A stretch of DNA of 64,000 nt from Candidatus Poribacteria bacterium (GTDB lineage: Bacteria; Poribacteria; WGA-4E; WGA-3G), in assembly GCA_022824265.1 (NCBI GenBank), contig JAJEAG010000056.1, forward strand, positions 1 through 64,000, in the 5' to 3' direction. Below the pieces are notes generated by a model. That model did not search any database. It worked only from the letters and a program-made list of their open reading frames with translations, and was not told the origin of the DNA. Both the position numbers and the translations under genes were made by a program. Positions 6,779 to 27,471 of this stretch are shown in pieces (positions within the stretch are counted from its first letter, which is position 1; each line of letters starts with the position of its first letter).

Positions 6779-8797
6779 ATGGAAAACCAAAAATCCTCAA
6801 TTGCTGCGCCAATAGGATCATTCAAAGGAGATGTAACAACTTGGTCACTCCCTGAAGGTGCGATTGCGCGCTTGGGGCGGGGAAGTGAACCTAAAATGGC
6901 ATTCTCACCTGATGGGCAGTACCTTGTCGTTGGTACCTGCATAGGACTCTGGTTATATGACCTGAATAAACTATCCCCAATCGCACTTTGGGAAGTGGAT
7001 CAAGGATTTGTAGAATCTGTCACCTTTTCTACAAACGGAAAATGGATAGCTGCCAGTTTCGCAGGTCGAATACTCAAGATTTTGGATGTCCAGAATGGTA
7101 TATGCTTGACACAGGTTAAATTAGAGACTTACGTAGATAGTGTGACTTTTTCCTATGATAACCGGTATATCGCAGTTGCTTATTGTGGCTATAGTAGTTC
7201 TCCTGTCGTTGAAGTCTGGCATGCGGCAACCGGAAAACCGTATGCAAAATTCACTGTGGACGCTGAAAGAGCAAGTATGTACCGACCTATTAGTTTCTCG
7301 CATGATACTCGGATGATTGCGTCTACTTGTATGTCCGCTACCACTGAGGGGGCAGATTCAATAATAGTGTGGAATATGGAATGCAGGGAACAAATTGCGT
7401 GTCTCACAAGACACACTCGTTGTGTAATTATTCTTTGCTTTTCACCGTGTGGACAGTATCTTGCATCTGGTGGAGAAGATGGCACCGTGTACGTATGGGA
7501 TGTTAACACTTGGCAACAAGCAAAAGAATATACGGATTATGGTGAAGTATACGGTATTACGCCATCGTATTCACCAGATGGTATTATCCGTGCGGTGATA
7601 GATACTCATGATGAAACAGGTCCTGCTACTATTTCTGTCCTTGACCTTGAAAGCGGAGAACAACTTTACACGGATCAGGTATGGGGTAATACTATAGATT
7701 TTTCCTACACTGGTGATTGGGGCAACAATGTAGTTTTTTCAAACGGTTCCCAACTTGCTTACGAATGCCGACATGAAATGATCAATGTATGGACTGCTGA
7801 CAATCCTGTCAAGCGTCAATTTGTGCATTCGCCTATCTCGTTTCCAACATCAATGTTCTTCTCGCACGATGGAAAAACATTGGCAGTGCAACATCATCAT
7901 GAAGGTGTTATGTTATGGGATATTGAAAGTAAACGTTCGCGTCCAGCGGTTAAAGTGGAATCTGTAGGGAAAAATCAGTTTTTATATAAAACCAATATTG
8001 GTAAACTCCATGTCGTAAGTATCATAAATGACACTGTTAGACTATGGGAAGCAGATGGAAATGGAATACCACTTATTGAAGGAACTGGACACAAATACTG
8101 GAGTGCAGTTCCCGCATTAGCACCAACAGGAAACCTTTTTGCGTATACTGGCGAGGATGGCACCGTACAGGTGTGGGATGTGCAGAGTGGAAAGAAACTT
8201 CATGTATTCACTCATCCTCTTGAACCAAGTGATAACGACGATGATGAAGATGATGGTGATTGTATTTATGAGTTGGAATTCAGTCAGGATGGAAAATTAC
8301 TTGTAAGTGAATCAAAATCTCGAACTTTTAAACTGTGGGATATGGAACTGGGTCAAGAGATAGAATTGTTACCAAGTGGTAGAATTACCGGATTCCGATT
8401 TTGCAGTTGTGGACAGCACATTGTTTGCTTTGGAGATGAAGAAATTCCAAATTGGGATATTATCAACAGAGAATTCTGTAAGGATGATACATGTATGTAT
8501 GAATCGAAAAAGTATGCAATTGAATCAAGATTGTCCAAACCTCAGGAATGTGATTATTTGGATAAACCTGTGTATTCTTCATGTGGGAACTACATTGCGA
8601 GTATAGCATCTTGGAACAAGGATTTAAAGAGGTATCCAATCGGTCTGTGGGAAGTTGAGAGTGGGAAACATCTTGTTACTTTTAGTGGACATGTTTCTGA
8701 TGTGAATGAAATTGCAATCTCTCCAGACAATAAACTATTAGCCAGTGCGAGTCATGATGGTACTATCCTGCTTTGGGATCTTACATTGTATCTTTGA
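6779..8797 (+). CDS. Double-propeller WD40 protein
   Basis: A 672-aa protein made almost wholly of WD40 repeats. I count 14 WD-type blade ends, which fits two seven-bladed beta-propellers. It has no signal peptide or membrane segment, so it is predicted cytosolic. It opens with the LPEGAIARLGRG motif near residue 24 that also heads most paralogues in this cluster. An acidic D/E-rich insertion lies between blades 10 and 11 (nucleotides about 8222-8260). It is a close full-length paralogue of the gene at 11907. No enzymatic domain is seen; the likely role is as a protein-binding scaffold or sensor. An AGAGG 6 nt upstream of the ATG supports the start. Confidence 0.85.
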   Translation: MENQKSSIAAPIGSFKGDVTTWSLPEGAIARLGRGSEPKMAFSPDGQYLVVGTCIGLWLYDLNKLSPIALWEVDQGFVESVTFSTNGKWIAASFAGRILKILDVQNGICLTQVKLETYVDSVTFSYDNRYIAVAYCGYSSSPVVEVWHAATGKPYAKFTVDAERASMYRPISFSHDTRMIASTCMSATTEGADSIIVWNMECREQIACLTRHTRCVIILCFSPCGQYLASGGEDGTVYVWDVNTWQQAKEYTDYGEVYGITPSYSPDGIIRAVIDTHDETGPATISVLDLESGEQLYTDQVWGNTIDFSYTGDWGNNVVFSNGSQLAYECRHEMINVWTADNPVKRQFVHSPISFPTSMFFSHDGKTLAVQHHHEGVMLWDIESKRSRPAVKVESVGKNQFLYKTNIGKLHVVSIINDTVRLWEADGNGIPLIEGTGHKYWSAVPALAPTGNLFAYTGEDGTVQVWDVQSGKKLHVFTHPLEPSDNDDDEDDGDCIYELEFSQDGKLLVSESKSRTFKLWDMELGQEIELLPSGRITGFRFCSCGQHIVCFGDEEIPNWDIINREFCKDDTCMYESKKYAIESRLSKPQECDYLDKPVYSSCGNYIASIASWNKDLKRYPIGLWEVESGKHLVTFSGHVSDVNEIAISPDNKLLASASHDGTILLWDLTLYL

Positions 8798-8830
8798 TTG
8801 TTGAAAACAAAAAAGACATAATTTTTTACC

Positions 8831-9097
8831 ATAGTTTGGACAGTTTTGAAATTGCTCATATAGTATGTTGTGGAAGCGTCTAACCATCAAACAAGTGATA
8901 ATTATACACATTTCGCCCCTCTGGGGCTCTGTGTTTGGTGAGTTACACGTTACTATACACATTCCGCCCCTCTGGGGCTGCTCTCTATTACTTCCGATAT
9001 ATGTTTTTCCGTGAGTTACAATTGCATGTAAATCTGGAGAGAAATAGAAAAACAACTGAAAACTCTATAAGCAAGGAGCATAAATTGTCCAAACTAT
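8831..9097. mobile_element. TIR element (about 267 bp) with internal direct repeats
   Basis: The terminal inverted repeats are ATAGTTTGGACAGTTT (8831-8846) and AAATTGTCCAAACTAT (9082-9097), 15 of 16 matching. Inside, a 25-bp unit occurs twice (8904-8928 and 8955-8979), each containing the hairpin GCCCC-TCT-GGGGC. There is no ORF of note. It fills most of the gap between the first WD40 gene and the sigma-WD40 gene. It differs from the family A elements. Confidence 0.65.
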
Positions 9098-9182
9098 AGT
9101 ATGAATTAGCAAAGTTATACTTTTTTAAACCTTTTACATAAAAACCCTCCTCTATAGAATAAACCGACTTAGGAATCTATCT

Positions 9183-11888
9183 ATGTACAAGAATTTTCTC
9201 GCGTTAAATGACCTGTCTGATGAAGAATTGATTCAGCTTGTACAGAATAGGAACGAAGCAGCTTTTGCAGAGATCATGTCTCGTTGGACATCTCGGATTT
9301 GGGGTGTTATTGTTGCCAACTCAAGGCAACTTCGAGACGCTGAAGAAATTCACACCGACATCTGGATAGCGGTCTGGCAAAACATCAGAGAACTCAGAAA
9401 TGTTGATAGTTTTGGTGCATGGTTACATCGCATTGCATATAACGAATGCAAGCGTTATTATATTTCGGCGCGAAAATCGCGTCATGAAATACCGCATCAA
9501 CACTCAGCGATCGTTGAACAGATTGACCAATATGCTGCTGCGCGATATAGAGAAGCACACTTGATTGCTGATGTGAAAGAAGCTTTACATCACCTCCCAC
9601 AGAAGATACGTTCTGTAGCGGAATTGTTTTATTTAGAATCGTGGAGTATCAAAGAAATTGCTGTGGAACTCAATCTCGCGATTGGTACAGTTAAAACGAA
9701 GTTAAGAGAGATACGAAAACGTCTGCGTGAGGAATTTGATGTAGAAGCTATCAGAGGAGAAGTAATGTCTTCAAAAGATGTTGAAACACACATTCCAATT
9801 CAGATTGAGACATACGAAGCAAAGCCAAGCATGACACCAGCACTGCTGAATGTTGTTGCGGATGACCCTACAGGGAATACTTGGGCAATACCAGAAGGGG
9901 CAATTGTTAGGTTGGGAAAAGGGGGGAACAGGGGAGGTAGCAAACTTTCCCCAAATGGAACACATTTTGCTGTAGCCACTTCAACAGGGTTATGGTGGTA
10001 TGATGTTTCCTCGATGTTGCCTGTTTCGTTATGGGAACCGGGTAAGGGATACATCAGTTCCATCAATTTCTCTCCTGATGGTCAATGGGTCATAATATCT
10101 ACAATATCTGCTGGGAACGGAACCATCAAGATTATGGATATTCAAAGCGGAGAGTGCATCATGCAGATAGAGGATCATGATGTGTGTAAAGATCTTGCAT
10201 GTTCATCAAATGGAAAGTGGGTCGCGACAGCATCTAAAAAAGGCGTTGTAAAGGTGTTGGATATCCAAACTGGTGAGTGCATTGCTCAGATGGATCGTGG
10301 AGAACACATAAGGCAATCAAACGATATTTCCCAACTCCAATTTTCCCCAGATGGTAAATTACTTGCCGCGCATGCTGGAAACCCCAAACTGTACTCAAAC
10401 GACGATGAACTCTTGAATCCTGATACAGAAGGAGATCAAATTTATGTCTGGTGTCCTATATCTGGCAAGGTGATACTCAAGTTTGCAGGACAAGATTTTA
10501 CCTTTTCCTCAGACAGTCGTTTGTTAGCGGTTACATGTCCTGACGAAACCTTGAACAATGACGAAAGCGTTGACCGTTGGATTTCAGTATGGGATGTAAC
10601 ATCATGGGAACTCCTCACACAATTTACAGGACATGACGATTGGATAGATACCATCGCTTTTTCACCGTGTGGACAATTCGTTGCCTCAAGTGACGGGATA
10701 CTACGGGTATGGGATATTGCAACAGGTTCAGAAAAGAATGTTTATCCTGACTTTCCAGACTATCAATATATATTCTACTCAGCGAAAGGGGAACTGTTTG
10801 TAGTAATAGTTCGTTCACCTACTTTGTCTATTGAAGTATGGAATGTAGAACATCGTGAAAAGATATATGAGATATCTGATATTGAAGGTATGGGATATGG
10901 TTTAGCCTTCGCCTATATAAAACGATTGGCTAATACAGCATCCTACAAACAGACAGATGGAAAAATACCGAAGTTCTCAACAGTGCGAGAACCTATTTTT
11001 CCCGAGTGGTTTGATCTGGATATAAATTGGTTAGATGACCAGACACTTGTAAGTAATGGTAGCACAGGAATAGTGTTATGGAGTGTAGACAAGAAATGTT
11101 ACCTTGATACAGTGTCCATAGATGGAGAGATAGATGCTATTACAGTTCTACCTTCTGGTAAAATGCTGGTTTCTTATTTTCCTGATTATATGAAAATGTG
11201 TGTTGCAAGCGTACCTTTTCAGCTAATTGCTGAGTTAGCTTTTCCTGATGAACTATCGGAATTGAATCGTTTTCGTGTATTTTCACCGACTGGTGAGTAT
11301 TTTGCGACAGGAAGTAGTGAAGGTACAGTCTATGTGTGGAATCTCAAGCAACCTGAGCACCCGATACGTCTCAAGGGACATACAGATTACGTTTACAGAT
11401 GTGAGTTTTCGTGGGATGGGAAACGCCTCGTGAGTGGAGCAAGTGACGAGACTGCGCGTGTGTGGGATGTGGAATTAGGTAAAGAAATTGCCAGATTGCC
11501 TGTGGACGAGTCTGACACAGCGTGGGGATTTGTGTTCTCACCCAGTGGTAACCTTATCGCGGGTTCTTTGGATAATGAGATCCGTCTCTGGTGTGCTAAG
11601 CAGTTCACAAAGGTCCGTTCAATACCGCAACCGAAGAAAAACAGGCAGACACATCCACTTGCATTTTCACCTTGTGGACAGTATCTTGCAGCAGCGACTT
11701 GGTGGCAGGAAGGATCGGAAGATATGGCAATTCGGATATGGGATGTTAATTCAGGTGAACAGGTCCATGCCTTCCAAGGACATAATTCACTTGTGCAATC
11801 GCTTGCATTTTCGCCAAATGGCTCAATGTTAGCAATTGGTTGTTGCAATAGCACAATCCTTGTGTGGGATCTAAAACAGTACCTGTAG
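9183..11888 (+). CDS. ECF sigma factor fused to double WD40 propeller
   Basis: A 901-aa fusion. Residues about 14-95 form a sigma70 region 2 (ending near FGAWLHRIAYNECKRYY) and residues about 130-183 form region 4 with the helix-turn-helix IKEIAVELNLAIGTVKTKL. After a linker comes IPEGAIVRLGKG (236-247) and about 14 WD40 blades. There is no transmembrane segment, so the whole protein is predicted cytosolic. The sigma part is a clear paralogue of that at 19039, and the propeller resembles those at 6779 and 11907. An internal ATG with its own ribosome binding site lies at the junction (residue 195). Likely a sigma factor controlled by its own propeller. It is followed 18 nt later by a WD40 gene, forming an operon. 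Confidence 0.85.
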   Translation: MYKNFLALNDLSDEELIQLVQNRNEAAFAEIMSRWTSRIWGVIVANSRQLRDAEEIHTDIWIAVWQNIRELRNVDSFGAWLHRIAYNECKRYYISARKSRHEIPHQHSAIVEQIDQYAAARYREAHLIADVKEALHHLPQKIRSVAELFYLESWSIKEIAVELNLAIGTVKTKLREIRKRLREEFDVEAIRGEVMSSKDVETHIPIQIETYEAKPSMTPALLNVVADDPTGNTWAIPEGAIVRLGKGGNRGGSKLSPNGTHFAVATSTGLWWYDVSSMLPVSLWEPGKGYISSINFSPDGQWVIISTISAGNGTIKIMDIQSGECIMQIEDHDVCKDLACSSNGKWVATASKKGVVKVLDIQTGECIAQMDRGEHIRQSNDISQLQFSPDGKLLAAHAGNPKLYSNDDELLNPDTEGDQIYVWCPISGKVILKFAGQDFTFSSDSRLLAVTCPDETLNNDESVDRWISVWDVTSWELLTQFTGHDDWIDTIAFSPCGQFVASSDGILRVWDIATGSEKNVYPDFPDYQYIFYSAKGELFVVIVRSPTLSIEVWNVEHREKIYEISDIEGMGYGLAFAYIKRLANTASYKQTDGKIPKFSTVREPIFPEWFDLDINWLDDQTLVSNGSTGIVLWSVDKKCYLDTVSIDGEIDAITVLPSGKMLVSYFPDYMKMCVASVPFQLIAELAFPDELSELNRFRVFSPTGEYFATGSSEGTVYVWNLKQPEHPIRLKGHTDYVYRCEFSWDGKRLVSGASDETARVWDVELGKEIARLPVDESDTAWGFVFSPSGNLIAGSLDNEIRLWCAKQFTKVRSIPQPKKNRQTHPLAFSPCGQYLAAATWWQEGSEDMAIRIWDVNSGEQVHAFQGHNSLVQSLAFSPNGSMLAIGCCNSTILVWDLKQYL
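9753..9767 (+). promoter_or_regulatory. Internal ribosome binding site and ATG at sigma/WD40 junction
   Basis: AGAGGAGAAG followed by ATG at 9765, in frame with the fusion gene, with AGGAG 5 nt before the ATG. Initiation here would give a sigma-free WD40 protein of about 707 aa. The equivalent site at 19611-19623 has the same 5-nt spacing. Confidence 0.5.
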
Positions 11889-11906
11889 AACTAAGGAGAT
11901 AATTTG

Positions 11907-13961
11907 ATGGATGACAGAAAATCAGTAATTCCTGCACACGTAGGTGCTGAAGGAGAAGATGTGACAACTTGGGGACTTCCTGAAGGTGCGATTGCACGTT
12001 TGGGGCGCGGGTGTAATCCTGACTTCGCTTTCTCACCAGATGGGCAATACCTTGTAATGGGAAACACATTAGGTCTTTGGGTGTATGATCTGGAAACCCT
12101 ATCCCCTATTGTGCTATGGGAGTCGGAACGTGGTATGATATTTCACATTGCAATTTCACCTAATGGAAAGTGGATTGCTGCCTGCAATTCTGACGAGATT
12201 ATAAAGGTATTGGATATCCAAAATGGCGCGTGTTTAGCACAAGTAAAATTAGAAAATTATATTACAAATTTGACTTTTTCACATGATAGTCAATATCTTG
12301 CAGCAGCATACGCAAGGACTTCTACCGTGGAAATCTGGCATGCTGAAACCTGCAAACCTGTTGCAAAATATACCTCGGACTCAGAAGAAGCAAGTTTCTT
12401 TAGACCTGTTAGTTTCTCACCTGATACGCGACTGATTGCATCTACATATATCCACGACTCCACTGACGGTGAAGCGTCGATAATCGTGTGGGATGTGCAA
12501 AGTCATGAGCAAATTGCATGTCTCTCAGCTCACACAAATTGGATCTCAACAATTTGCTTTTCACCGTGTGGAAAATTTCTTGCTTCCGCTGACGAAGATG
12601 GTCCCGTATATGTATGGGGTGTGGAGAATTGGCGACAAGTGCATTGTTATAAAGATTATGGTGGTGTGTATCGTATTATTCCTTCTTGGACACCAGATGG
12701 AAATTTACGCGCAGCGATTATAAATTTTGACAAGACCGATCCCGTCACAATCTCTGTCCGTGACCTTGAAACCGGGGAACAACTATATAACGATCAAGTT
12801 TGGGGCAATACTGTCCAATTCTCAGATGCAGATGATTGGGGTAATACTGTCATATTTTCAAACGGTTCGCAACTTGCTTACGAATGCAGACATGATTTCA
12901 TCAATGTATGGACACCTGAATATCCATATAGGCGACAGTTTACACATTCGCCTATTTCTTTTCCTTCCTCTACACATTCACGTGATGCGTTTCCTACATT
13001 TGCAGTGTTTTCGGATGATGGCAAAACTTTGGCAGTAAAACATCATCATGAAGGTGTTGTGTTATGGGATATTGCAAGTAAGCGGTCACGTCCGGCAGTA
13101 AAAGTAGAATCAGCAGGTAAAAATCAGTTTTTATATAAAACCGTTAACGGAAAATTCTATGTCGCAAGTATCAGAGATGACACAGTTACACTTTGGGAGG
13201 CTGATAGTGACAGGATGCCGCTTATTGAAGGAACGGGACGGAAATATTGGGGTGCATCTCCAGCATTATCACCGACTGGTAAGTTATTTGCTTATGCAGA
13301 TGAAGATGGTAACCTCAAAGTGTGGGATGTGCAAAGTGGGAATCAAATCTATGAACTTAAACATCCACTTGAGTCAAATGATGAAGGTGATGAAGATGAT
13401 GAAGATACGATTTGTGATTTGCAATTCAATATAGATGGAAAGATACTCGCAAGTAAATCAAATTCTACTTCTCCGGCAGTCATTTTGTGGGACATGGAAT
13501 TTGGTGAAATGAAAGAGACTTCTCCAAGTAATACTGCCACAGGCATCCTCGGAATGCTCGTTTTGAGAAAATTGAAACCCAGATCTCGTGAGGTCGTCCA
13601 TATTTCTCATGATAGAAAGTATTTATCTTCTTTAGGAAATAACACATATTTGTATGATGTGAAAGAGAATGATTATCTTACTCGGTTGTCCTTACCGAAA
13701 GGGTTAGAAGATATGTTTTGGGTTGCTGAATTTTCTATGTGTGGGAAATATTTTGCAGCTGGAACATGGTGGCAAGAAGGTATGGAGAAAATGGTAATCT
13801 GTTTATGGGAGGTAGAAACCGGCAAACAGATTGCTACATTTAGAGGACATCCAACAGATGTTCATGCTCTTGCCTTTTCGCCAGACAACAAACTCTTAGC
13901 AAGTACAAGTTATGATGGTTCTATCCTTTTATGGGATCTTACACCTTATATAGATGATTAA
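11907..13961 (+). CDS. Double-propeller WD40 protein
   Basis: A 684-aa WD40 protein with about 14 blade ends and no export signal. LPEGAIARLGRG appears near residue 29. It aligns along its full length with the gene at 6779, including the acidic insertion between blades 10 and 11 (nucleotides about 13376-13408), so the two are duplicates flanking the sigma-WD40 gene. The start is set at ATG 11907, 8 nt after AAGGAG, rather than the TTG at 11904. Lying 18 nt downstream of the sigma-WD40 gene, it is probably co-transcribed with it, and it could act as a free partner or competitor of the fused propeller. Confidence 0.85.
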   Translation: MDDRKSVIPAHVGAEGEDVTTWGLPEGAIARLGRGCNPDFAFSPDGQYLVMGNTLGLWVYDLETLSPIVLWESERGMIFHIAISPNGKWIAACNSDEIIKVLDIQNGACLAQVKLENYITNLTFSHDSQYLAAAYARTSTVEIWHAETCKPVAKYTSDSEEASFFRPVSFSPDTRLIASTYIHDSTDGEASIIVWDVQSHEQIACLSAHTNWISTICFSPCGKFLASADEDGPVYVWGVENWRQVHCYKDYGGVYRIIPSWTPDGNLRAAIINFDKTDPVTISVRDLETGEQLYNDQVWGNTVQFSDADDWGNTVIFSNGSQLAYECRHDFINVWTPEYPYRRQFTHSPISFPSSTHSRDAFPTFAVFSDDGKTLAVKHHHEGVVLWDIASKRSRPAVKVESAGKNQFLYKTVNGKFYVASIRDDTVTLWEADSDRMPLIEGTGRKYWGASPALSPTGKLFAYADEDGNLKVWDVQSGNQIYELKHPLESNDEGDEDDEDTICDLQFNIDGKILASKSNSTSPAVILWDMEFGEMKETSPSNTATGILGMLVLRKLKPRSREVVHISHDRKYLSSLGNNTYLYDVKENDYLTRLSLPKGLEDMFWVAEFSMCGKYFAAGTWWQEGMEKMVICLWEVETGKQIATFRGHPTDVHALAFSPDNKLLASTSYDGSILLWDLTPYIDD

Positions 13962-14047
13962 TTCTTATGATAAAGATCTGTTGAGCAGTATATCTGGAAC
14001 AAAATGGTATTTCAGTTTACTCACATTTGTTTCAATTATGACAATTA

Positions 14048-14075
14048 TGCAACCTGACAACATAAAATTCGCGTC
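14048..14075 (+). promoter_or_regulatory. Candidate ECF-type promoter
   Basis: TGCAACC (14048-14054), a 17-bp spacer, CGTC (14072-14075), preceded by TGACAATTA. The layout resembles ECF promoters with an AAC -35 and a CGTC -10. The same arrangement with identical spacing is found at 26384-26411 and 27472-27499. It lies about 38 nt before the start of a sigma-WD40 gene, which suggests autoregulation. Confidence 0.5.
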
Positions 14076-14112
14076 TTAATTACTGTATGCTCATGTTATG
14101 ATGAGGTAACTA

Positions 14113-16839: not shown

Positions 16840-16904
16840 GTAGTAATTTCCAGAATAATATCTAATTTATAACCCACACAATAATCAAAGGAGTTCATAC
16901 TTGA

Positions 16905-18836
16905 ATGAAAATACTCAGCATCTTGCCTTATATATTACCATTAATATCTACCTCCTTTCTTCTCACATTCTTATCAGGTGTTGCTTTTTCCCAAAACTAT
17001 ATCCACTTAAGTCTACCTGAAGGAGCTAAGGCACGTCTTGGTAAAGGAAGAATACATCAGCTTAAGTATTTTCACGATGGTAAACGTTTGGCTGTTGCTA
17101 CTGCAATCGGAGTATGGATTTATGATGTTCAGACAGGTGAAGCACTTGATCTGCTCACTGGACATACGGCACAGGTTAAGTCAATTGTCTTCAGTCCAGA
17201 CGGAGAAACTTTAGCCATAGGGAGTGAGGACAATACTATCCAATTGTGGGATACCAAAACACATAAACTTAATGCAAAATGTATTGGTCATGAAAAGGAT
17301 GTCAATTTATTAGTGTTTAGTCCTGACAGTAAGATGCTTGTAAGTACCAGCAAGGATTGGAAGATGCGGCTCTGGGACGTACAAACAGGGAAATCACTTA
17401 AAACTATCACAGGTTGTGGTGCCGAAGATATGTATGCAATAACCTATACCCTCGACGGTGCTATGTTCCTCACTTTCAGGTATGATGACAGGTTTGAAGG
17501 ATATATTGAATTCTGGGATGGGAAAACTGGTGAGTTTGTAGAATCTGTTCTTATTGAAACAAAATTTGAGGCAGCATCGTTTTCTTCCTACTGCAAAATT
17601 CTGGCTATCATAGGTAATTACTCGTCTCCGCTTCAGTTTTGGGATGTAGAGAGTGGAAAACTTCTGCAAAGTGCTGAGAAGTGTGATGAAAGTTATGAGT
17701 CTTTAGAGTTTTCACCTGATGGACGTAATGTGATTACTATTGGAAAATGGGACTCCGTAAGTATTTGGGATGTAAGCACAGCAGAACGTCTGAACAGCAT
17801 GTCGTTTGGAAAACCGAATAATTCGGGCACTTATTCACCGGACGGGAAGACAATAGCAAGTGGAAGTGATGATGGTAGCATCCGATTTTGGGATGCTGCA
17901 ACTGGAGAACTTAAGAATACTATCACTGGTCACACGGATTCGCGCATCTTTTCCGCTGCTTTTTCTCCTGACGGTAGTACTCTTGCTACTGGTGGAGAGT
18001 CCAAAATCCAATGGTGGAATCCACAGACCGGTAAACGCTTGAAAACTATTACAGAACCGCGTTCCAGTGTTCATACTATAAAATACTCTCCTACTGCGAA
18101 GATTTTTGCTACTGGAGGCACATCCAAGAAAGCACGTTTGTGGGATGCGAAAACCGGCAGGTTCCTTGGCAGATTCTCAGTACACAAAGATCAGAGTCCT
18201 TACGGGAATAAGGAAAAGGTTTCTTCTGTCGCCTTTTCACCCGATGGTAACAAACTTGCGACCGGAGGTAGTGACAATCAAGTTTGTTTATGGGAAATTC
18301 TAACTGATGAACAATATTTGATTGGTGAACGTTTAGCAACCTTTACCGAACATACAGAGAGTGTTACTTCTGTAGAATTTTCTCCCGATGGGAAAGTCCT
18401 TGCAAGTGGAAGCAAAGATAAGACAATACAGATGTGGGATGTAAAATCTCGTAAGCATTTGAAAACCCTAACTGGACATGAAGAACCTATCACTGCTGTT
18501 GTTTATTCTCCCGATGGCAGTATTCTTGCCAGTGGAAGTGAAGATGGCACAATCCGCTTATGGGACGTAAATTCGGACAACTTTTTGTCCTCAAAAATAG
18601 AGGATGCAGGACATATAACTTCGCTCGTTTATTCTCCTGATGGTAGAATACTTGCATGTAGTACTGATGACGACAATGTAGTTCACCTATGGGATACCAA
18701 GACAGGACAGCTCCTTCAGACATTTACGGGACATACACAAAGTGTCAATGATGTTGTGTTTTCACCTGATGGTAAGACACTCGCAAGTGTAAGTGATGAC
18801 GGGACTGTCCTTTTGTGGGATCTCACAAAATTGTAA
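16905..18836 (+). CDS. Secreted double-propeller WD40 protein
   Basis: A 643-aa protein with an N-terminal signal peptide (hydrophobic core about residues 8-27, probable cleavage after VAFS or nearby), then LPEGAKARLGKG at about residues 37-48 and 14 WD40 blade ends, consistent with two propellers. It is predicted periplasmic. It lies 65 nt after the membrane-anchored sigma-WD40 gene, whose propeller faces the same compartment and carries the identical motif. The pair could therefore interact outside the membrane. AGGAG about 11 nt upstream supports the ATG. Confidence 0.82.
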   Translation: MKILSILPYILPLISTSFLLTFLSGVAFSQNYIHLSLPEGAKARLGKGRIHQLKYFHDGKRLAVATAIGVWIYDVQTGEALDLLTGHTAQVKSIVFSPDGETLAIGSEDNTIQLWDTKTHKLNAKCIGHEKDVNLLVFSPDSKMLVSTSKDWKMRLWDVQTGKSLKTITGCGAEDMYAITYTLDGAMFLTFRYDDRFEGYIEFWDGKTGEFVESVLIETKFEAASFSSYCKILAIIGNYSSPLQFWDVESGKLLQSAEKCDESYESLEFSPDGRNVITIGKWDSVSIWDVSTAERLNSMSFGKPNNSGTYSPDGKTIASGSDDGSIRFWDAATGELKNTITGHTDSRIFSAAFSPDGSTLATGGESKIQWWNPQTGKRLKTITEPRSSVHTIKYSPTAKIFATGGTSKKARLWDAKTGRFLGRFSVHKDQSPYGNKEKVSSVAFSPDGNKLATGGSDNQVCLWEILTDEQYLIGERLATFTEHTESVTSVEFSPDGKVLASGSKDKTIQMWDVKSRKHLKTLTGHEEPITAVVYSPDGSILASGSEDGTIRLWDVNSDNFLSSKIEDAGHITSLVYSPDGRILACSTDDDNVVHLWDTKTGQLLQTFTGHTQSVNDVVFSPDGKTLASVSDDGTVLLWDLTKL

Positions 18837-19038
18837 GAGTTCCAGAATCCATTTCTTTTTTATTCCAATTTCATATTCCTAATTGAGTTGTGTTATTTCT
18901 TATTGCACCTGATTCCCTGTCTTCAAATACGCACTCAAAGACAGAATTTTGACCTAAAAAATAAAAAATACTCATTTTTTAAACCGTTTCCTATTTTATT
19001 TCCCTCTTTATATTGGAAACCTAATTTGAAATTGGTCT

Positions 19039-21573
19039 ATGGACACCGATTTGATGACTCTCAGTGATCTTCAAGATGATGCATTGATACGACTTGTACA
19101 AAACCGTGATGAGGCAGCTTTTGCTGAACTCATGTCGCGTCATACACCGCGTATCTGGGGTATAATTGTTTCAAAATCCAGACAACATCGTGATGCAGAA
19201 GAGATCCTCATGAATGTGTGGATAGCAGTCTGGGAGAATATTGAAGGTCTAAGGAAAATTGATAGTTTTGATACTTGGTTACGTCGAATTACATTAACCG
19301 CTTGTAGAAGATATTACAGTTCACACCGTCGTTCTCGTGATGTCATTCTTCAGAGTCATGAGGAATTATTTGAATATATTGACAGAGCTGCTCCTTCGCG
19401 TTATCGTGAAACACAATTACGTCAAGATGCCAGAGAGGCGGTCGATCATCTACCACAAAGGGTGCGTTCCATTGCACGATTATATTATCTTGAATCAAGG
19501 AATGTCAACGATATCGCGGATCAATTAAACATAGCAATAGGAACAGTCAAGACAAGATTAACTGAAATACGTACGATCCTACGTAAAGAATTTAGTGTTG
19601 AACTACAGCAGGGAGATGTTATGCATGTAGAGTCTGATAAAAGGCAAAGTCATGACAAGTATAAGGAGAACTATCTTCCTAAAGGAGCACTTGCACGATT
19701 TGGAAAAGGTTACATTTTTGATTTTTCTTATTCACCCGATGGTACACGATTTGCTGTGGGATGTACAATCGGTATCTGGTTATATGATACTCAAACCGGT
19801 GAAGAAATAAATTTTTTAAAAGGTCATAGCTATTATGTGAGTGGTGTGGATTATAGTCCTGATGGTAGCACACTTGCGAGTTATAGTGATTGGAATGACT
19901 ACACAATACGTCTGTGGGATCCAGATACTGGGGAATTGAAGGCATTGCTCACCGGACATGCAGCGGATATATCTTCTCTTGTTTTCAGTCCAGATGGCAA
20001 AACTATTGCGAGTGGAAGTAAAGACAAAACTATTCGTTTATGGAATGGTGTCACTGGTGAACTAAAAGCAACTTTGGAAGGTCATACTGATAAGATCAAT
20101 ACATTAGCGTTCAATCCAGATGGAAAGACACTTGCAAGCGGTGGAAGTGATGAAGTCATACGAATTTGGGATGTTTCAACAAGCGAACTTCTCTTAGTCT
20201 TTGCTGCGCACGCGAATTCTATTGATTTTCTTATGTATTCACCTAATGGGGAGATACTTATTAGTCAGGGACGCGATAACAATGTATGTTTATGGGATGC
20301 ACGGACCGGTGAGTTTATACGTTTATTCAAAATGAATGCAAAAGGAGTAGATTCAATTGATTTTTCAAGAGATTGGAAAACTCTTGCATGTGTTGACTCA
20401 GATAGAACACTCCATTTTTGGAATCCGCATACAGGTGAACAACTGAATACAATCAATTGGAAGAGAAAAATTAAGAATATCCTGTTTTCTTCAGATGGTA
20501 GTATCTGTGCCTGTAATGACGACGAAGATGGAACAATGCTTCTAATTGATGCCAAAAAGGGACAGTTATTATGTGACCTCAAAATACCTGGATTAAGAAA
20601 AGCTGTTAATGATTTTAAGTATTCACCCGATGGACGTTCACTTGCCGTTTCTAACGGATTTGAGATATATTTCTGGGATGTGAAACAAGGTGAACTTGAT
20701 AAGACAATTACGGGTTATTCTGAGGTTGTAAATTCTGTAGCATTTTCTCCAAATGGTGGTACAATAGTGAGTTTAGACAGTTACGTCCGGATTTGGGATA
20801 TAAACACACAGAAACTCATAAAGACAATTGATCCAAAAAGTTATGTTAGATCAATTGCATATTCCCCTGATGGTGAGACTCTTGCTTGCGGAACTCGTGA
20901 GAACACAATTCTGCGATGGGATGTTGACACATGGGAACAAAAGACAACCTTTGAAGCACACACGAAAGGATTATCATGCATAAACTACAGTTCTAATGGT
21001 AAAACCCTCGCAAGTGGAAGTTGGGACAAGACAATCCGATTGTGGAATTCAAATACTGGAGAACTCTTAAACACACTTATTGGACATACAGATGGGGTTC
21101 ATGATGTTGCCTTTTCACCGAATGGTGGTACTCTCGCAAGTGGAGGTTCCGAAGGAACAATTCGGTTTTGGGATGTTGCGACTGGCAAACTAATTAGAAC
21201 AATTGACACACAGTCTGAGAATTGTATAGATTCTGTGGCGTATTCACCTGACGGAAAGACAATTGCATGTACTAGTGATAACGGTGCTGATGGAATCCGT
21301 TTTTGGGATGTTAGCACCGGTGATCTCATAAAAACCGTAGCCGTGAAAGCAGCAGCATTTTCCGTAGAGTTTTCTCCGGATGGCAGCACATTTGCAAGTG
21401 GTGGTATAGGAGAACTCTCTGTTTGGGATGCTAAAACCTATAGCATTGTAAAAACTTTTACAGGACATATTGAACCTGTTTATTCAGTAGTCTATTCACC
21501 CGATGGTAAGACACTCGCAAGCGGTTGTAGAGATAGTACTGTGATTATATGGGATTTGGATTTAACGGAGTAA
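19039..21573 (+). CDS. ECF sigma factor fused to double WD40 propeller
   Basis: An 844-aa fusion. The first 190 residues are an ECF sigma factor very similar to that at 9183: region 2 about 14-95, region 4 about 130-183 with DIADQLNIAIGTVKTRL. A short linker leads to LPKGALARFGKG (213-224) and 14-15 WD40 blades. There is no membrane helix, so it should be cytosolic. An internal GGGAG-N5-ATG (ATG at 19621) marks the sigma/WD40 junction, as at 9765. There is no obvious ribosome binding site at the first ATG; ATG 19054 is an alternative start. It is followed 33 nt later by another WD40 gene. Confidence 0.85.
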   Translation: MDTDLMTLSDLQDDALIRLVQNRDEAAFAELMSRHTPRIWGIIVSKSRQHRDAEEILMNVWIAVWENIEGLRKIDSFDTWLRRITLTACRRYYSSHRRSRDVILQSHEELFEYIDRAAPSRYRETQLRQDAREAVDHLPQRVRSIARLYYLESRNVNDIADQLNIAIGTVKTRLTEIRTILRKEFSVELQQGDVMHVESDKRQSHDKYKENYLPKGALARFGKGYIFDFSYSPDGTRFAVGCTIGIWLYDTQTGEEINFLKGHSYYVSGVDYSPDGSTLASYSDWNDYTIRLWDPDTGELKALLTGHAADISSLVFSPDGKTIASGSKDKTIRLWNGVTGELKATLEGHTDKINTLAFNPDGKTLASGGSDEVIRIWDVSTSELLLVFAAHANSIDFLMYSPNGEILISQGRDNNVCLWDARTGEFIRLFKMNAKGVDSIDFSRDWKTLACVDSDRTLHFWNPHTGEQLNTINWKRKIKNILFSSDGSICACNDDEDGTMLLIDAKKGQLLCDLKIPGLRKAVNDFKYSPDGRSLAVSNGFEIYFWDVKQGELDKTITGYSEVVNSVAFSPNGGTIVSLDSYVRIWDINTQKLIKTIDPKSYVRSIAYSPDGETLACGTRENTILRWDVDTWEQKTTFEAHTKGLSCINYSSNGKTLASGSWDKTIRLWNSNTGELLNTLIGHTDGVHDVAFSPNGGTLASGGSEGTIRFWDVATGKLIRTIDTQSENCIDSVAYSPDGKTIACTSDNGADGIRFWDVSTGDLIKTVAVKAAAFSVEFSPDGSTFASGGIGELSVWDAKTYSIVKTFTGHIEPVYSVVYSPDGKTLASGCRDSTVIIWDLDLTE
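19611..19623 (+). promoter_or_regulatory. Internal ribosome binding site and ATG at sigma/WD40 junction
   Basis: GGGAG (19611-19615), 5 nt, then an in-frame ATG at 19621. The flanking codons read GDV-M, matching GEV-M in the paralogue at 9765. Initiation would give a free propeller of about 650 aa. Confidence 0.5.
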
Positions 21574-21606
21574 ACTGTATATCACAAAAATATATCTATA
21601 AGGAAG

Positions 21607-23505
21607 ATGATGCATATACCGCAACCCGATAAACAATGGATACTACCCCCTAATGCTAAAGCACGTATCGGTAAAGGGGGAATCAATGTAATAGAGTATT
21701 TTCCTGACGGTACTCGTCTTGCAGTTGCGAGTACGATAGGTATTTGGATTTACGATGTGCATACATGTGAACTGCTTGAACTGATTACGGGACATACTGG
21801 ACCAGTCAATTCAATTGTCTTTTCCCCAGATGGTAATTTGTTTGCTACGGCAAGTGATGATAACACTGCACGCCTGTGGGATACCGTCACCTGTGAACAC
21901 AAAGTCAGTTACATTGGACATACAGATGTTATCAATTCTGTTGACATTAGTCCTGATGGTAAGAGAATAGTTACAGCAAGTGATGACAGGACGATTGGTC
22001 TGTGGGATATACATACGGGAGAACTGATTGCCAAACTTGAGGGGCATACGGAAAAGGTACTATCAGCCGTTTTTTCTCCAGACGGTACTGTGATTGCCAG
22101 TAGTGAAGAATTTGGAAAAGAGGGTGGAATTCGAATTTGGGATGCACACACAGGTGAATTTCTGAAATCTTATTCAGAAGATACCGACTGGGTGGAATAT
22201 GTCGTATATAGTCCTGACGGTAAGTCACTCATCAGTCGAGATACATGTAGAGAGATAAACTTCTGGGATGCTGAAACAGGTAAAAAACTGAAACCGCTTG
22301 AAACAGATGATTGGATGAGTTTCTTCAGTCCAATAGCTATTTCTCCAAACAGAAATTCATTAGCAATAGGTGTAAGGGATGGTGATGTTTGCCTTTGGGA
22401 CATCAACACCAGAAGATTCTTGAAAGAATTTGAACTTGGTGAAAGCGTAGATTTATACCCCTCTTCTGTTTCGTTTTCACCTGATGGGGAGACGATTGCT
22501 TCCGCACATGAGGATGGCACAATACGGTTTTGGGATGAAAACTCAGGTAAGATTACAAAAGATATTACGGGTCACACACCCCATGAGTCTTCTACGCAGA
22601 AATCAGAAGGATCAAGCAGTGATTCTAAACGTACAATTTCTGTTGCATTTTCTCCAGATGGAAAAACCTTTGTAAATTCGTACGATACGGAAATACATAT
22701 AAGAAATTCAGAATGTGGTGAAATTCAAACAATTATTACAGGAGCAAGCGAAAATGTGCGTATAGTGACGTTTTCACAGGACAGTAAAATGCTCGCAAGT
22801 GGTGGAAATTCGCCAAAAACACAATTGTGGGATACACATCACGGAAGATTCCTTGGATCCTATCCTGGACATAAGGAATGTGTATCTACCTTAGATTTTT
22901 CGCCTGATGGTTGCGTACTTGCGAGTGGAGGTGAGGACAATTCTATCTGTTTATGGAAAGTCAGAAAAGGTGAACTTTACATTATTGGTGAACTTCTGGT
23001 AACACTGTCTGAACATACAGATGTTGTATCTTCTGTAACGTTTTCACCAAATGGTAATAGCCTTGTCAGTGGGAGTCATGACAGCACAGTCCGATTGTGG
23101 GATGTCCAAACTGGAAATCTTATGAAGACCTTAAATGGGCATGCGGCACCTGTAAATGACGTAGTATATTCGCCTGATGGGAGTATCTTTGCCAGTGGAA
23201 GTAGTGATGGAAAGATACGGTTGTGGGACGGTCAAACTGGTGAACAACTGAAAATCCTAAATGAGCAATCTCATAACATCATATCCGTTGCGTTTTCTCC
23301 AAGCGGTAGTATTATTATTGGTGGGACCACTGGTCCAATATACTTTTGGGACGTGCAGACAGGAAAACTACTGGGAACCTATAACGGACACACGGATGTT
23401 GTAGATAGTCTCGCATTTTCTCCAGATGGTAAAACACTTGCCAGTGGTAGTTATGATGGGACAGTCCTCTTGTGGGAAATTTCTTCCTTAATGCTAAACC
23501 CTTAG
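21607..23505 (+). CDS. Double-propeller WD40 protein
   Basis: A 632-aa WD40 protein with 14 blade ends and no signal peptide, predicted cytosolic. The head motif is degenerate here (LPPNAKARIGKG near residue 18). Blade 8 is degenerate, with IHIRN in place of the WD dipeptide. ATG 21607 and ATG 21610 are adjacent; the second has better spacing from AAGGAAG. It lies 33 nt after the sigma-WD40 gene at 19039, repeating the sigma-fusion-then-free-propeller order seen at 9183/11907 and 14113/16905. Confidence 0.82.
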   Translation: MMHIPQPDKQWILPPNAKARIGKGGINVIEYFPDGTRLAVASTIGIWIYDVHTCELLELITGHTGPVNSIVFSPDGNLFATASDDNTARLWDTVTCEHKVSYIGHTDVINSVDISPDGKRIVTASDDRTIGLWDIHTGELIAKLEGHTEKVLSAVFSPDGTVIASSEEFGKEGGIRIWDAHTGEFLKSYSEDTDWVEYVVYSPDGKSLISRDTCREINFWDAETGKKLKPLETDDWMSFFSPIAISPNRNSLAIGVRDGDVCLWDINTRRFLKEFELGESVDLYPSSVSFSPDGETIASAHEDGTIRFWDENSGKITKDITGHTPHESSTQKSEGSSSDSKRTISVAFSPDGKTFVNSYDTEIHIRNSECGEIQTIITGASENVRIVTFSQDSKMLASGGNSPKTQLWDTHHGRFLGSYPGHKECVSTLDFSPDGCVLASGGEDNSICLWKVRKGELYIIGELLVTLSEHTDVVSSVTFSPNGNSLVSGSHDSTVRLWDVQTGNLMKTLNGHAAPVNDVVYSPDGSIFASGSSDGKIRLWDGQTGEQLKILNEQSHNIISVAFSPSGSIIIGGTTGPIYFWDVQTGKLLGTYNGHTDVVDSLAFSPDGKTLASGSYDGTVLLWEISSLMLNP

Positions 23506-23644
23506 ATCTATTATCAGTTTTTATGAATTTACCTTAAAGTGCATCCATGCGTGTGTATATAATGGCAGACAATGTAATCAATAGTGTCATAGGTGATTTC
23601 TTGAAAATTAACACTCTAATACCTCATTCAGGAGGAAACAACGG

Positions 23645-24346
23645 ATGAATACTAAATCCCTTATTTACATATTACTTATATTATTGGTTGTGCTTGGTTG
23701 TAATATACCAATAATAAAGTTCACCCCTAAAGAATTACCTGGTGTAAAAGTTACTACTCCTCCTGTCATAGATGGCAAATTAGATGATGATGCATGGAAA
23801 AAAGCCCCACGTGGTATTGATTTCACAGACAGAAACGCAAACCATGAATTAGCAAAAGACCAATCTATGATTATGTTGGTATATACTGATTTGGCTATTT
23901 ATGTTGCATGGTATCTATACGATGAAAATCCAGATCAATTAGTGGCATTTGAAACAAAGGATCAGATGCGTCCACATCAGGATGACTGGGTTTCTTTTAC
24001 TATTGATCCTTTTCATACGCATCAATTCCAGGATAGGATTTTTTTTATGACAAATCCGAATGGAGTTAAGTTTGTAAGTCATCCTCCACCAGATGTTCCT
24101 TTGGAAGATGTCCCGCTTATGTGGGATGTTGCTACAGCCATTGTTGAAGATGGATGGATCGTTGAAATGGTAATACCCTGGAACATGTTAGACTATCCAC
24201 AAATAGACGAACCGATTGACATTGGAATCAATTTTGATCGAGGACATCCAAGAACAGGTGAGAATTCATGGTGGTCTACAGTGCCATCTGCCGAAGATGA
24301 CAGACCCGATGGACATTGGTTGGATGTCTTACCCCCAAAAAAATAA
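23645..24346 (+). CDS. Lipoprotein with CBM9-like domain
   Basis: A 233-aa protein. The signal peptide ends in the lipobox VLGC, with the lipidated Cys at residue 19. The mature part begins with PPVIDGKLDDDAWKKAP, the usual opening of CBM9/DOMON-like carbohydrate-binding domains, and continues with YVAWYLYDENPDQL and a VEMVIPWNMLDY core typical of that fold. Function is probably sugar or glycan binding at the outer membrane or periplasm. It has a strong AGGAGG and sits inside the WD40 array, the only non-WD40 gene there, so it could supply the ligand-sensing side of the system. That role is inference. Confidence 0.75.
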   Translation: MNTKSLIYILLILLVVLGCNIPIIKFTPKELPGVKVTTPPVIDGKLDDDAWKKAPRGIDFTDRNANHELAKDQSMIMLVYTDLAIYVAWYLYDENPDQLVAFETKDQMRPHQDDWVSFTIDPFHTHQFQDRIFFMTNPNGVKFVSHPPPDVPLEDVPLMWDVATAIVEDGWIVEMVIPWNMLDYPQIDEPIDIGINFDRGHPRTGENSWWSTVPSAEDDRPDGHWLDVLPPKK

Positions 24347-24425
24347 GTCCCGAATGTAATTTCACAAAGTATTGTTTGATACCAAGTCATGCAATAATAT
24401 AAATGGAGGTATAGAAACCAGATAC

Positions 24426-26231
24426 ATGCAGCAGCTACAGTCCTGTACTCAATGGGGACTTCCACAAGGTGCTATTGCCCGACTTGGTAAGGGTGGAGTC
24501 GGAAGAATCCGGTATTCACCAGATGGCACGCAACTGGCAGTTACTGGACCGTTGGGTATTTGGTTATACGATACATATACCTGCAGCGAAGTCGCACTAT
24601 TAAGTACTGGACAAGTTCACGGTACTACATCAATTCCACAATCGTGGGGTGGGATAACCCTTGTTAACCACAACTGGGACGATACGGTTTCACTTTGGGA
24701 TACCCACTCTGGACACCGTCTGATTAAGCCAGAAAGACATACAGATATCTATGATGTAGCTTTGTCACTCGATGGAACAATTCTCGTAACTGGTAGTTCA
24801 GATAAAACAATCCGTTTTTATGACAGTCAAAAAGGTAGTTTGCTATCTGTTGCTGTTGGTCACACTGAGTCAATCACTGGATTAGCATTTTCACATGATG
24901 GCAAGATTCTCGCAAGTGGAAGTGGCGACAATACGATCCGCTTATGGGATGGTAGAGATGGTAAACATCTTTCTACGCTTAGGGGACATGAAGATGAGAT
25001 TTGGTCATTAGCATTCTCACCGAATGGAATAATCCTTGCAACGCGAAGTACAGATCAAACTCTCTGTCTATGGGATGTGACTACCGGTAAAAAAGTAGAA
25101 ACATTAGCCACTGGATTGGATAAGTTTGGGTATATAGTGTTTTCAGTAGATGGTACACTTATCGCCAGCGGTTGTAGTGATAAGACTGTACGTATATGGA
25201 ATGCTGATACATTCACTGAGTACTTAACCCTTACAGGACATAGAGCATCAGTTTGGACTACAGCGTTTTCTCCTGATGGTAGAACGATTGCAAGTTACAG
25301 TAGCGATACTTCAATTCGGTTCTGGGATTTAAAAAATGGTACCGAAAAAGGAATCATCACTGGTCATGCGGGATGGTTAAATTCAATCGCATTCTCACCA
25401 GATGGTAGTCTGTTGGCTTGTGGTAGCACTGATAACACACCGCATTTGTGGGATATGCCTACCTATACGGTGTCCACACCCTTTGATAATATTCCTGATT
25501 CCATATATGAAATCAGATTTTCTCCTGATGGATCTACCCTTGCGGGTGCATGTATTGATGAAAGTATATACTTGTGGGATATGAATACCAAATCGTCACG
25601 AGCAGTCTTACAAGGACATACAGATACGATTCGCTCCTTGGCGTTTGCGCCTAATAGTATTAATCTTGTTAGTGCCAGTGATGATAACACTATCCGAATA
25701 TGGGATATTGACACAACAAGTGAATTAACAGTAATTCAGTCAGATACACATTATGTTAGTATGATTGCCATTTCCCCCGACGGTGGAACACTTGCCAGTA
25801 CCACAAATGGGAGTATTCACATATGGAATGCTAATACAGGTCATCTTATAACTGTTCTCAGAGGGCATGAGGGTAATGTTCGCACACTCGCATTTTCACC
25901 GGATAACAGATTATTAGCCAGTGGAGGTAATGATGAAACCATCATGATATGGGATATAAAATACTATCAGCATCTGTTAACTCTTACAGTATCCAGCAGT
26001 GTTTATTCCGTAGCATTTTCACCGAATGGACATATACTTGCCAGTACAGGAATGGATGGCAATATACGAGTATGGGATCCAATTAGCGGCAATCAGCGCG
26101 CAATCTTGAATGGTCATTTTGAGGATGCGCACTTTTTATCGTTCAGTCCAGATGGGAAACTGCTTGCGAGTTGTGGTGATGGAATCATATTCTTATGGGA
26201 CTTTAATTCCATTGGTAAGATTTATAGTTGA
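24426..26231 (+). CDS. Double-propeller WD40 protein
   Basis: A 601-aa WD40 protein with exactly 14 countable blade ends, and LPQGAIARLGKG starting about 10 residues into the protein. It has no signal peptide. The start is placed at ATG 24426 because the longer reading frame begins only at a TTG (24372) without a ribosome binding site. GGAGG lies 16 nt before ATG 24426, a longer spacing than usual, so the start is not certain. It follows the CBM9-like lipoprotein by about 80 nt. Confidence 0.8.
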   Translation: MQQLQSCTQWGLPQGAIARLGKGGVGRIRYSPDGTQLAVTGPLGIWLYDTYTCSEVALLSTGQVHGTTSIPQSWGGITLVNHNWDDTVSLWDTHSGHRLIKPERHTDIYDVALSLDGTILVTGSSDKTIRFYDSQKGSLLSVAVGHTESITGLAFSHDGKILASGSGDNTIRLWDGRDGKHLSTLRGHEDEIWSLAFSPNGIILATRSTDQTLCLWDVTTGKKVETLATGLDKFGYIVFSVDGTLIASGCSDKTVRIWNADTFTEYLTLTGHRASVWTTAFSPDGRTIASYSSDTSIRFWDLKNGTEKGIITGHAGWLNSIAFSPDGSLLACGSTDNTPHLWDMPTYTVSTPFDNIPDSIYEIRFSPDGSTLAGACIDESIYLWDMNTKSSRAVLQGHTDTIRSLAFAPNSINLVSASDDNTIRIWDIDTTSELTVIQSDTHYVSMIAISPDGGTLASTTNGSIHIWNANTGHLITVLRGHEGNVRTLAFSPDNRLLASGGNDETIMIWDIKYYQHLLTLTVSSSVYSVAFSPNGHILASTGMDGNIRVWDPISGNQRAILNGHFEDAHFLSFSPDGKLLASCGDGIIFLWDFNSIGKIYS

Positions 26232-26383
26232 TTCCAACAAATTACGTGATTAATATTCTAATAAATCAATAGGAAGTAAGACATTAGCTGGACAGATCAT
26301 ATATGACATTGTGATTATCAAGGTATAATAAGAAAATAAATTTTCTGTATTATTCTACAATGGTCTCTTAATTGTGATAATCA

Positions 26384-26411
26384 TGCAACCAAATCACCAA
26401 AACAACGCGTC
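26384..26411 (+). promoter_or_regulatory. Candidate ECF-type promoter
   Basis: TGCAACC (26384-26390), a 17-bp spacer, CGTC (26408-26411), with TGATAATCA before it. Same layout and spacing as at 14048. It lies about 75 nt upstream of the single-propeller WD40 gene. Confidence 0.5.
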
Positions 26412-26485
26412 ACCTATATAGGAAGATCAAATATACCTTCAATCAAATTATACTCAACACAACACAATAAAAGGAGAAAACATTT

Positions 26486-27418
26486 ATGGAGATGATGAGT
26501 GCGGATCACGCACTTTATTTAACATTTGAAGGATATCAGGAAGGAGTCAATAGTGTAGTATTTAGTCAATATGGTAATACACTCGCAGCAGATATGGACA
26601 ACACCATCAGATTATGGGATATTTCAACAGGACAGGAAAAGAAGATATTCTGGGTGGATATCGGAGAGCATTCCACAAGTGGTGTTAAAAGTGTAGCAAT
26701 TAGTCCAAACGGATGTATGATCGCTGGGGGTATTAACGAAATAGAGACAATCTGTTTATGGGATATGGAAACAACTGAACAAATCAATTTAATACGTGAA
26801 AGAAAAAGCAAAGCTATGCATTGGGTCAATGCTGTTGCATTCAGTATTGATGGTAAGATGCTTGCAAGTGGAAGTGAAGACGGTAATCTTTACTTGTGGA
26901 ATGTAATAACAGGTGAAAAAATAAAAGCACTTACAGAAGATACAGAGAATATCTTTAGTATTGCATTTTCACCTGATGGCAAAACGATAGCGAGTGGAAA
27001 TGCTGATAATACTATACAATTATGGGATCTCGCATCTGGCGAAAACACCGCGACTTTGGAAGGACATACTGATTGGGTTTTCTCTGTAGTTATTAGTCCA
27101 GATGGCAAAACACTCGCAAGCGGTAGTAAAGACAAAACAATACGACTTTGGGATACTACCACAAATAAAGAAAAGAAACCACTTATCGGACATCAGAACA
27201 TTGTATGGAGTGTTGCATTTAGTCCAGATGGGAAAATACTTGCAAGTGGAAGTGAAGACAACACAATACGTCTGTGGGATATTGCTACAGGTGAACATAT
27301 TGAAACGATAACAGGACACACTAGTCCTGTTAAATGCGTAGCATTTAGCCCAGATGGAACAAAAATAGCAAGTAGCACTGACAATGGTGCTGTGTTTATT
27401 TGGGAAATCTATCTTTGA
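26486..27418 (+). CDS. Single-propeller WD40 protein
   Basis: A 310-aa protein of seven WD40 repeats, matching one seven-bladed propeller with no extra domains. It lacks the LPEGA head motif and any signal peptide, so it is predicted cytosolic. The repeats are closer to consensus than in the double-propeller proteins (GHTDWVFSVVISPDGKTLASGSKDKTIRLWD type). AGGAG precedes the ATG and a candidate ECF promoter lies upstream. It is the last intact gene of the array. Confidence 0.85.
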   Translation: MEMMSADHALYLTFEGYQEGVNSVVFSQYGNTLAADMDNTIRLWDISTGQEKKIFWVDIGEHSTSGVKSVAISPNGCMIAGGINEIETICLWDMETTEQINLIRERKSKAMHWVNAVAFSIDGKMLASGSEDGNLYLWNVITGEKIKALTEDTENIFSIAFSPDGKTIASGNADNTIQLWDLASGENTATLEGHTDWVFSVVISPDGKTLASGSKDKTIRLWDTTTNKEKKPLIGHQNIVWSVAFSPDGKILASGSEDNTIRLWDIATGEHIETITGHTSPVKCVAFSPDGTKIASSTDNGAVFIWEIYL

Positions 27419-27471
27419 TGTTTGGTTATTGGATTTTCCTGAAACATAGGATATTAGATTATTGACAATTA

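Follow-up and report, generated by a model that had tools for sequence, protein, structure and literature searches.

A tandem array of WD40 genes in a poribacterial genome encodes fusions of ECF sigma factors to beta-propellers which, on the balance of what we found, probably act as one-protein sensor-regulators, each with a partner propeller in its own compartment and with self-activation through a promoter specific to its sigma class. The sequence itself shows the fused architecture, the intact sigma regions, upstream motifs that differ by sigma class, purifying selection, compartments that match and propeller lineages that mirror each other; we infer that the fused propeller binds its free partner and that this binding, or a ligand, controls the sigma factor. 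Poribacteria are abundant, uncultured symbionts of sponges. Their wealth of WD40 proteins was noted earlier, with no function assigned and no mention of sigma factors (PMC3909097).

The array occupies positions 6779-27418, on the plus strand, of the window, by which we mean the whole stretch of 64 kb that was analysed. The window was taken from contig C81 of a draft genome of 4.45 Mb. Nine WD40 genes, starting at 6779, 9183, 11904, 14113, 16905, 19039, 21607, 24372 and 26486, all score over the PF00400 cut-off (9/9); the initial annotation had the single strand right but counted eight. An intact N-terminal ECF sigma factor is present in three of the nine (9183-11888, 14113-16839 and 19039-21573) and, as had been claimed, each fusion is followed closely by a free propeller gene, with gaps of 15 nt for 9183 (18 nt if counted from an in-frame ATG at 11907), 65 nt for 14113 and 33 nt for 19039. 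The respective partners are a cytosolic protein (11904-13961), an exported protein with the signal peptide MKILSILPYILPLISTSFLLTFLSGVAFSQ (16905-18836) and a protein without a signal peptide (21607-23505). The remaining free propellers are a cytosolic paralogue of 11904 with 57% identity (6779-8797), a cytosolic member of a conserved orthologous group (24372-26231) and a 310-aa protein that is a predicted target of class-A sigma factors (26486-27418). Free and fused propellers of the array open with a common motif, LPEGAxARLGKG or a variant of it, which on inspection of the array propellers was not found in 26486. A small exported CBM9-like protein, not a WD40 protein, is encoded at 23645-24346. 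Beyond the last propeller, also on the plus strand, lie a gene for a small membrane protein with weak similarity to GspC (27743-28222), likewise a predicted class-A target, and, 48 nt 3' of it, a free-standing ordinary ECF sigma factor gene (28271-28900). No zinc-finger anti-sigma gene occurs within the array, in agreement with the initial annotation; the genome has six zf-HC2 genes, all of them on other contigs and most adjoining free-standing ECF genes.

Both sigma-70 region 2 and region 4 are over their Pfam cut-offs in the N-termini of 9183, 14113 and 19039, which bears out the three proposed fusions; having these regions without region 3, they qualify as ECF sigma factors. TIGR02937 is also over cut-off for 14113 and 9183. 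Two classes can be told apart, here termed A and B, both with SigW as the match of solved structure (3e-33 for class A and 5e-19 for class B). The predicted class-A module superposes on region 2 of sigma-E bound to -10 DNA with a TM-score of 0.91 of the target and an rmsd of 1.3, and region 4 structures superpose on it as well. The sigma part changes more slowly than the propeller, and its dN/dS, where estimable, is 0.07-0.21, or strong purifying selection. Judged by their sequences, the sigma domains are intact in both classes.

Class A is represented in the array by 14113, in which the sigma factor (residues 1-190) is followed by a transmembrane helix (about residues 219-237) and a double WD40 propeller (about residues 316-908); the class-B proteins 9183 (sigma factor in residues 1-190) and 19039 have a WD40 propeller and no transmembrane helix. 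Helices, like signal peptides, were called from hydrophobicity and visual inspection. By Foldseek E-value the 14113 model matches the double propellers 2ymu and 1nr0, in keeping with WD40 repeats that fold as 7-bladed propellers, with low whole-chain TM-scores in a full-length model of moderate quality (mean pLDDT 69) that does not resolve the linker and transmembrane region. The membrane-spanning segment is better conserved than the propeller.

Genome-wide there are 28 ECF fusions, 25 of class A (20 with a helix) and three of class B, so that 20/28 have the architecture sigma factor, transmembrane helix, C-terminal domain. The helix-bearing fusions of this genome end in WD40, BNR/sortilin-like, CarboxypepD_reg, lectin or M16-like domains, and the C-termini of those lacking a helix include DnaN, TPR-like, S9 peptidase, FtsZ-DnaE and cytosolic WD40 domains. 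Homologous C-termini of the transmembrane fusions fall nearly all into a single exported-type cluster, in which 95/101 have the transmembrane segment. For the helix-bearing proteins, this distribution fits an arrangement with the sigma factor inside and the sensor outside. Class-A profile matches were obtained in 85/85 searched genomes of the phylum, with at least 29 in each of most genomes of the family; those in distant genomes may be ordinary ECF sigma factors. Class B is found in 58/85 genomes, essentially of a single family. The best 78 loci of a contig profile scan were from Poribacteria only, and when plasmids were searched for relatives from planctomycetes, all matches were generic ECF ones of less than 60% identity. 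The array belongs to a phylum-wide family of fusions.

How a membrane-anchored sigma factor would reach RNA polymerase is a question for class A in particular, and proteolytic release seems the most likely answer. That these sigma factors act while membrane-bound, in the manner of CadC or ToxR, is the less likely course: no more than about 25-40 residues lie between region 4 and the helix, and a domain search of this linker matched no domain, anti-sigma or other, both of which suit such a mode, yet a sigma factor must bind core polymerase and usually departs from the promoter with it, and IutY, a membrane-fused ECF that has been studied, is freed by proteolysis (PMC8999054).

Among 214 distinct fusions, a free WD40 gene lies directly downstream of 32/75 WD40 fusions as against 5/84 other fusions (Fisher P = 4e-8). 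Adjacency of fusion and free propeller is therefore not due to chance, and the pairs do recur in related genomes, as the initial annotation had proposed that profile searches might reveal; the order 6779/9183/11904/14113 is seen again in one other locus (L057). Pairing is common but not obligatory, and lone WD40 fusions without a partner are found in L054, L055, L056, L058 and L123. A notion that pairing is peculiar to WD40 proteins was rejected, since ECF-CarboxypepD_reg/Lectin and other fusions also adjoin free homologues. For non-WD fusions the excess of free homologous neighbours is weak downstream (4, where shuffles average 1.7) and clear upstream (9, where they average 1.5 and reach at most 5).

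The compartments of the paired proteins agree. Among WD40 fusions followed by a free propeller, seven of eight with a transmembrane helix have a partner with a signal peptide, 22 of 24 without a helix have a partner without one, and within the mirrored lineages agreement is complete (21/21 adjacent pairs). Twice independently, in the 19039/21607 type and in the L153/L165 type, a class-B fusion goes together with a partner that has lost its signal peptide; for 21607, which is cytosolic and derives from the same exported lineage as 16905, the 33-nt intergenic gap is too short to hide a signal peptide. As the pairs are kin by descent, these two joint switches of compartment are few independent events. 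All members of the 9183/11904 lineage are cytosolic, and those class-A sigma factors that occur on it lack the helix.

In a tree that spans 171 propellers, 14113 and 19039 have their fused propellers in one clade (0.991), and the partners of these fusions, 16905 and 21607, fall in another (1.0, n=30); the node joining the two partner groups directly has low support (0.48), and deep nodes are uncertain because repeat proteins align imperfectly. We considered whether the free propeller is a recent copy of the fused one and rejected this, the two being separate old lineages with 35-40% identity. Free partners, with a dN/dS of 0.16-0.25, are under purifying selection, as are the fused propellers. 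Compartment match and mirrored lineages both speak for a joint function of the fused propeller and its free partner.

It might be held instead that tandem duplication and recombination, in a genome rich in WD40 repeats, left the array behind as a by-product, its neighbours joined by descent and not by function. The genome does contain WD40 arrays without sigma factors, for example C56, and arrays are strongly reshuffled between genomes; furthermore, 9183 appears to have exchanged its propeller relative to its counterpart at L130, dS being 1.17 for the propeller, 0.37 for the sigma part and about 0.28 for flanking genes. We nevertheless regard this account as improbable, given that the partners are old lineages and not copies of the fused propellers, that both kinds are maintained by selection, that compartments switch jointly, that pairing is enriched over non-WD fusions and that the promoter-like sites are specific to sigma class.

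Those promoter-like sites have the layout expected for ECF sigma factors. The class-A upstream motif is TGCAAC-N15/16-CGCGTC, class-A fusions having in common AATTATGCAACC-(N)-TCGCGTC with a narrow spacing; the class-B motif is TTTAAACC-N17-CTCT, class-B fusions having in common TTTTTTAAACC-(N)-CCTCT with a fixed spacing. In the 64 kb window a score of 14 or more is reached at five sites only, each of them within the array and on the plus strand. Two are of class B, at 9120-9158 (TTTTTTAAACC-N-CCTCT, 24 nt 5' of the start codon of 9183) and 18974-19012 (26 nt 5' of that of 19039), and three are of class A, at 14043-14078 (TGCAAC-N-CGCGTC, 34 nt 5' of the start codon of 14113), 26379-26414 (5' of 26486 and kept before its orthologues in L148 and L141) and 27467-27502 (5' of 27743/28271). 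In a five-fold held-out test of de-duplicated upstream sets, at a threshold score of 15 or more, a site was present before 71% of the class-A fusions (n=150) and 96% of the class-B fusions (n=46), in a design not wholly blind in that site positions were first found on the full set. Dinucleotide shuffles carried a site in 0.3% (A) and 0% (B) of cases, and upstreams of the other class in 0%; shuffled and other-class sequences served as the controls for motif A, ordinary upstreams having held apparent regulon members. When the next gene upstream on the same strand is more than 150 nt away, a class-A site is present in 82-87% of cases, as compared with 17% of genes closely 3' of another gene, a low value that is expected if such genes sit inside operons. 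Regulon scans, which combined the patterns with selected loci, placed the exact B pattern before the three class-B genes and at one position inside an opposite-strand open reading frame, and gave 11 genome-wide matches to the exact A pattern against one for the reversed-pattern control.

The motifs are best taken as putative promoters used by the adjoining sigma factor, which would amount to positive autoregulation by each class. Paralogues share upstream DNA by descent, so the motifs could instead have been copied along with the sigma gene, or could be sites of another regulator; this is a quite improbable origin for motifs that have a -35/-10 layout of fixed spacing in de-duplicated sets, that go with the sigma class and not with the C-terminal domain, that lie 24-39 nt 5' of the start codon in most examples inspected, that are mostly missing from closely following genes and that also precede unrelated genes. 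Since class-A genes have one motif in common, there may be cross-activation among the roughly 25 class-A sigma factors of a single genome, and a private circuit for each becomes a weaker idea.

The initial annotation saw in the array a sigma-regulating system in which propellers replace anti-sigma factors, and the first part of that reading stands. The second, in that form, is not supported for the free propellers: 16905 is exported and the sigma domain of 14113 is cytosolic, so the partner cannot reach it, which argues for an action of free propellers on fused ones. What the free propeller tracks is its fused counterpart, not the sigma domain, and its mirrored lineage and matched compartment suggest that it is a co-sensor; a direct anti-sigma role is possible in the two cytosolic pairs only. 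That free propellers bind and block the sigma domain is very doubtful, since, for all that zinc-finger anti-sigma genes are missing from the array, that a free propeller sits where an anti-sigma gene usually does, directly 3' of the sigma gene, and that two of three pairs are cytosolic, one partner is exported, another, the cytosolic 21607, goes back to that exported lineage and many fusions, class B included, have no partner.

According to the sensor-regulator model that we favour, the attached propeller or other domain of each fusion would set the activity of its ECF sigma factor, and the fusion would need no separate anti-sigma factor. A single transmembrane helix would anchor the class-A sigma factor, with its propeller outside the cytoplasm, and class B would be soluble. 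The operon that encodes the fusion would also yield the free propeller, which would partner the fused propeller, and not the sigma domain, in their shared compartment. Each sigma class would recognise its own promoter 5' of its own operon, making activation self-amplifying, and fused sensor and free partner would rise together; the class-A promoter would also serve a few other genes (26486 and 27743/28271). We hold more tentatively, at somewhat short of even chances, the broader proposal of a modular receptor system in which an interchangeable sigma module, of two classes each with a self-activating promoter of its own, is set on many sensors, the WD40 version being a receptor of two propellers, one fused and one free, that change compartment together. 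Some of the WD40 proteins of Poribacteria would become sigma-factor sensors with predicted, testable promoters, and a signalling system of an uncultured bacterium is now open to testing. Joint compartment switching offers an unusual natural experiment on which propellers belong together. If class-A sigma factors are released from the membrane, they would constitute a large family of transmembrane sigma receptors, each a single protein and without an anti-sigma factor, with 20 members in this genome.

Group ECF57 has a pair of conserved cysteines linking sigma2 and sigma4; what the array fusions have in common with this group is the C-terminal WD40-like extension. ECF57 and the Gemmataceae ECF-WD40 proteins are described ECF sigma factors of Planctomycetes with long C-terminal WD40 extensions (PMC8999054, PMC11032199, PMC8567305), as the initial annotation had stated; they resemble the present proteins in that extension, in doing without an anti-sigma factor and in lineage-wide expansion, and differ in phylum and in that here there are transmembrane and soluble classes, paired free propellers and class-specific promoters. 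The suggestion that a paired, multi-copy array may be new agrees with the literature searched, in which pairing is undescribed and we found no report of poribacterial fusions, free partners, two promoter classes or joint compartment switching.

Membrane-fused ECFs are known in IutY (ECF243), for which proteolytic release has been shown, and SCO4117 (ECF52) (PMC8999054). Like these, the class-A proteins have an ECF sigma factor fused to a transmembrane helix, with a sensing part outside the cytoplasm, but the outside part here is a propeller or other domain, and between sigma factor and membrane there is only a short linker, in contrast to the zinc-finger anti-sigma domain of ECF52 members and the fused anti-sigma factor of IutY. 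The helix after the sigma factor that marks the membrane-fused groups ECF48/52/53 and ECF243 is present in 14113 and absent from 9183 and 19039. ToxR-ToxS and CadC are membrane-anchored activators whose outside domain is aided by a partner, ToxS being encoded next door. They are alike in working, as membrane-anchored transcription activators with a partner-assisted outside domain, but are winged-helix activators and not sigma factors, without sequence relation to the array proteins. Ser/Thr kinases with periplasmic WD40 repeats occur in Uabimicrobium, of the Planctomycetota (PMC11032199), and these have the same order of cytosolic output domain, single membrane helix and periplasmic WD40 repeats, the output being a kinase instead of a sigma factor.

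In the ECF-propeller fusion at 9183-11888, whose class B sigma lacks a transmembrane helix, the propeller has a dS of 1.17 relative to L130:5264-7960, one of the loci compared, whereas the sigma part has a dS of 0.37 and the flanking genes about 0.28. Because the propeller is so much more diverged than the sigma part or the flanks, these substitution rates give the appearance of a sensor domain exchange. Elsewhere in the window, 31869-34865 encodes a large WD40 protein that is secreted and contains both a dockerin-like stretch and a sorting tail for type IX secretion (over the TIGR04183 cut-off), and at 30149-31555 HEAT repeats are coupled to a PhyH dioxygenase domain.

Fused and free genes are also paired outside the WD40 families: at L033:16105-19721 and L046:9696-14249 an ECF-TM-CarboxypepD_reg fusion, which in L033 includes a lectin domain, is followed by a free secreted protein carrying CarboxypepD_reg and lectin domains. 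At L075:8636-12193 and L111:8672-12193 a free gene lies 5' of a class A fusion, has 62-70% identity to the fused C-terminal domain and is preceded by a class A promoter-like site. Such a site also lies 53 nt upstream of a free WD40 gene (1115 aa; L168:10091-13438, same genome as the window), a possible additional class A target.

At L048:1600-5643, in this genome and accompanied by a class B promoter-like site, a single 1347 aa frame carries both FtsZ and the alpha subunit of DNA polymerase III (DnaE) on a class B ECF sigma; the genome holds one further FtsZ and one further DnaE. L171, L172 and L173 are relatives, and frames of about this length with a class B sigma occur in dozens of poribacterial genomes, the domains having been checked in the L048 copy only. 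At L034:12321-14078, likewise in this genome and with a class A promoter-like site, a class A ECF sigma is fused to a DNA sliding clamp (DnaN); the adjoining gene (15579-18389) fuses a class A sigma to an S9 prolyl oligopeptidase. In T4 late transcription a sigma-like factor operates together with the sliding clamp, and the ECF-DnaN fusion is, by analogy, reminiscent of that system.
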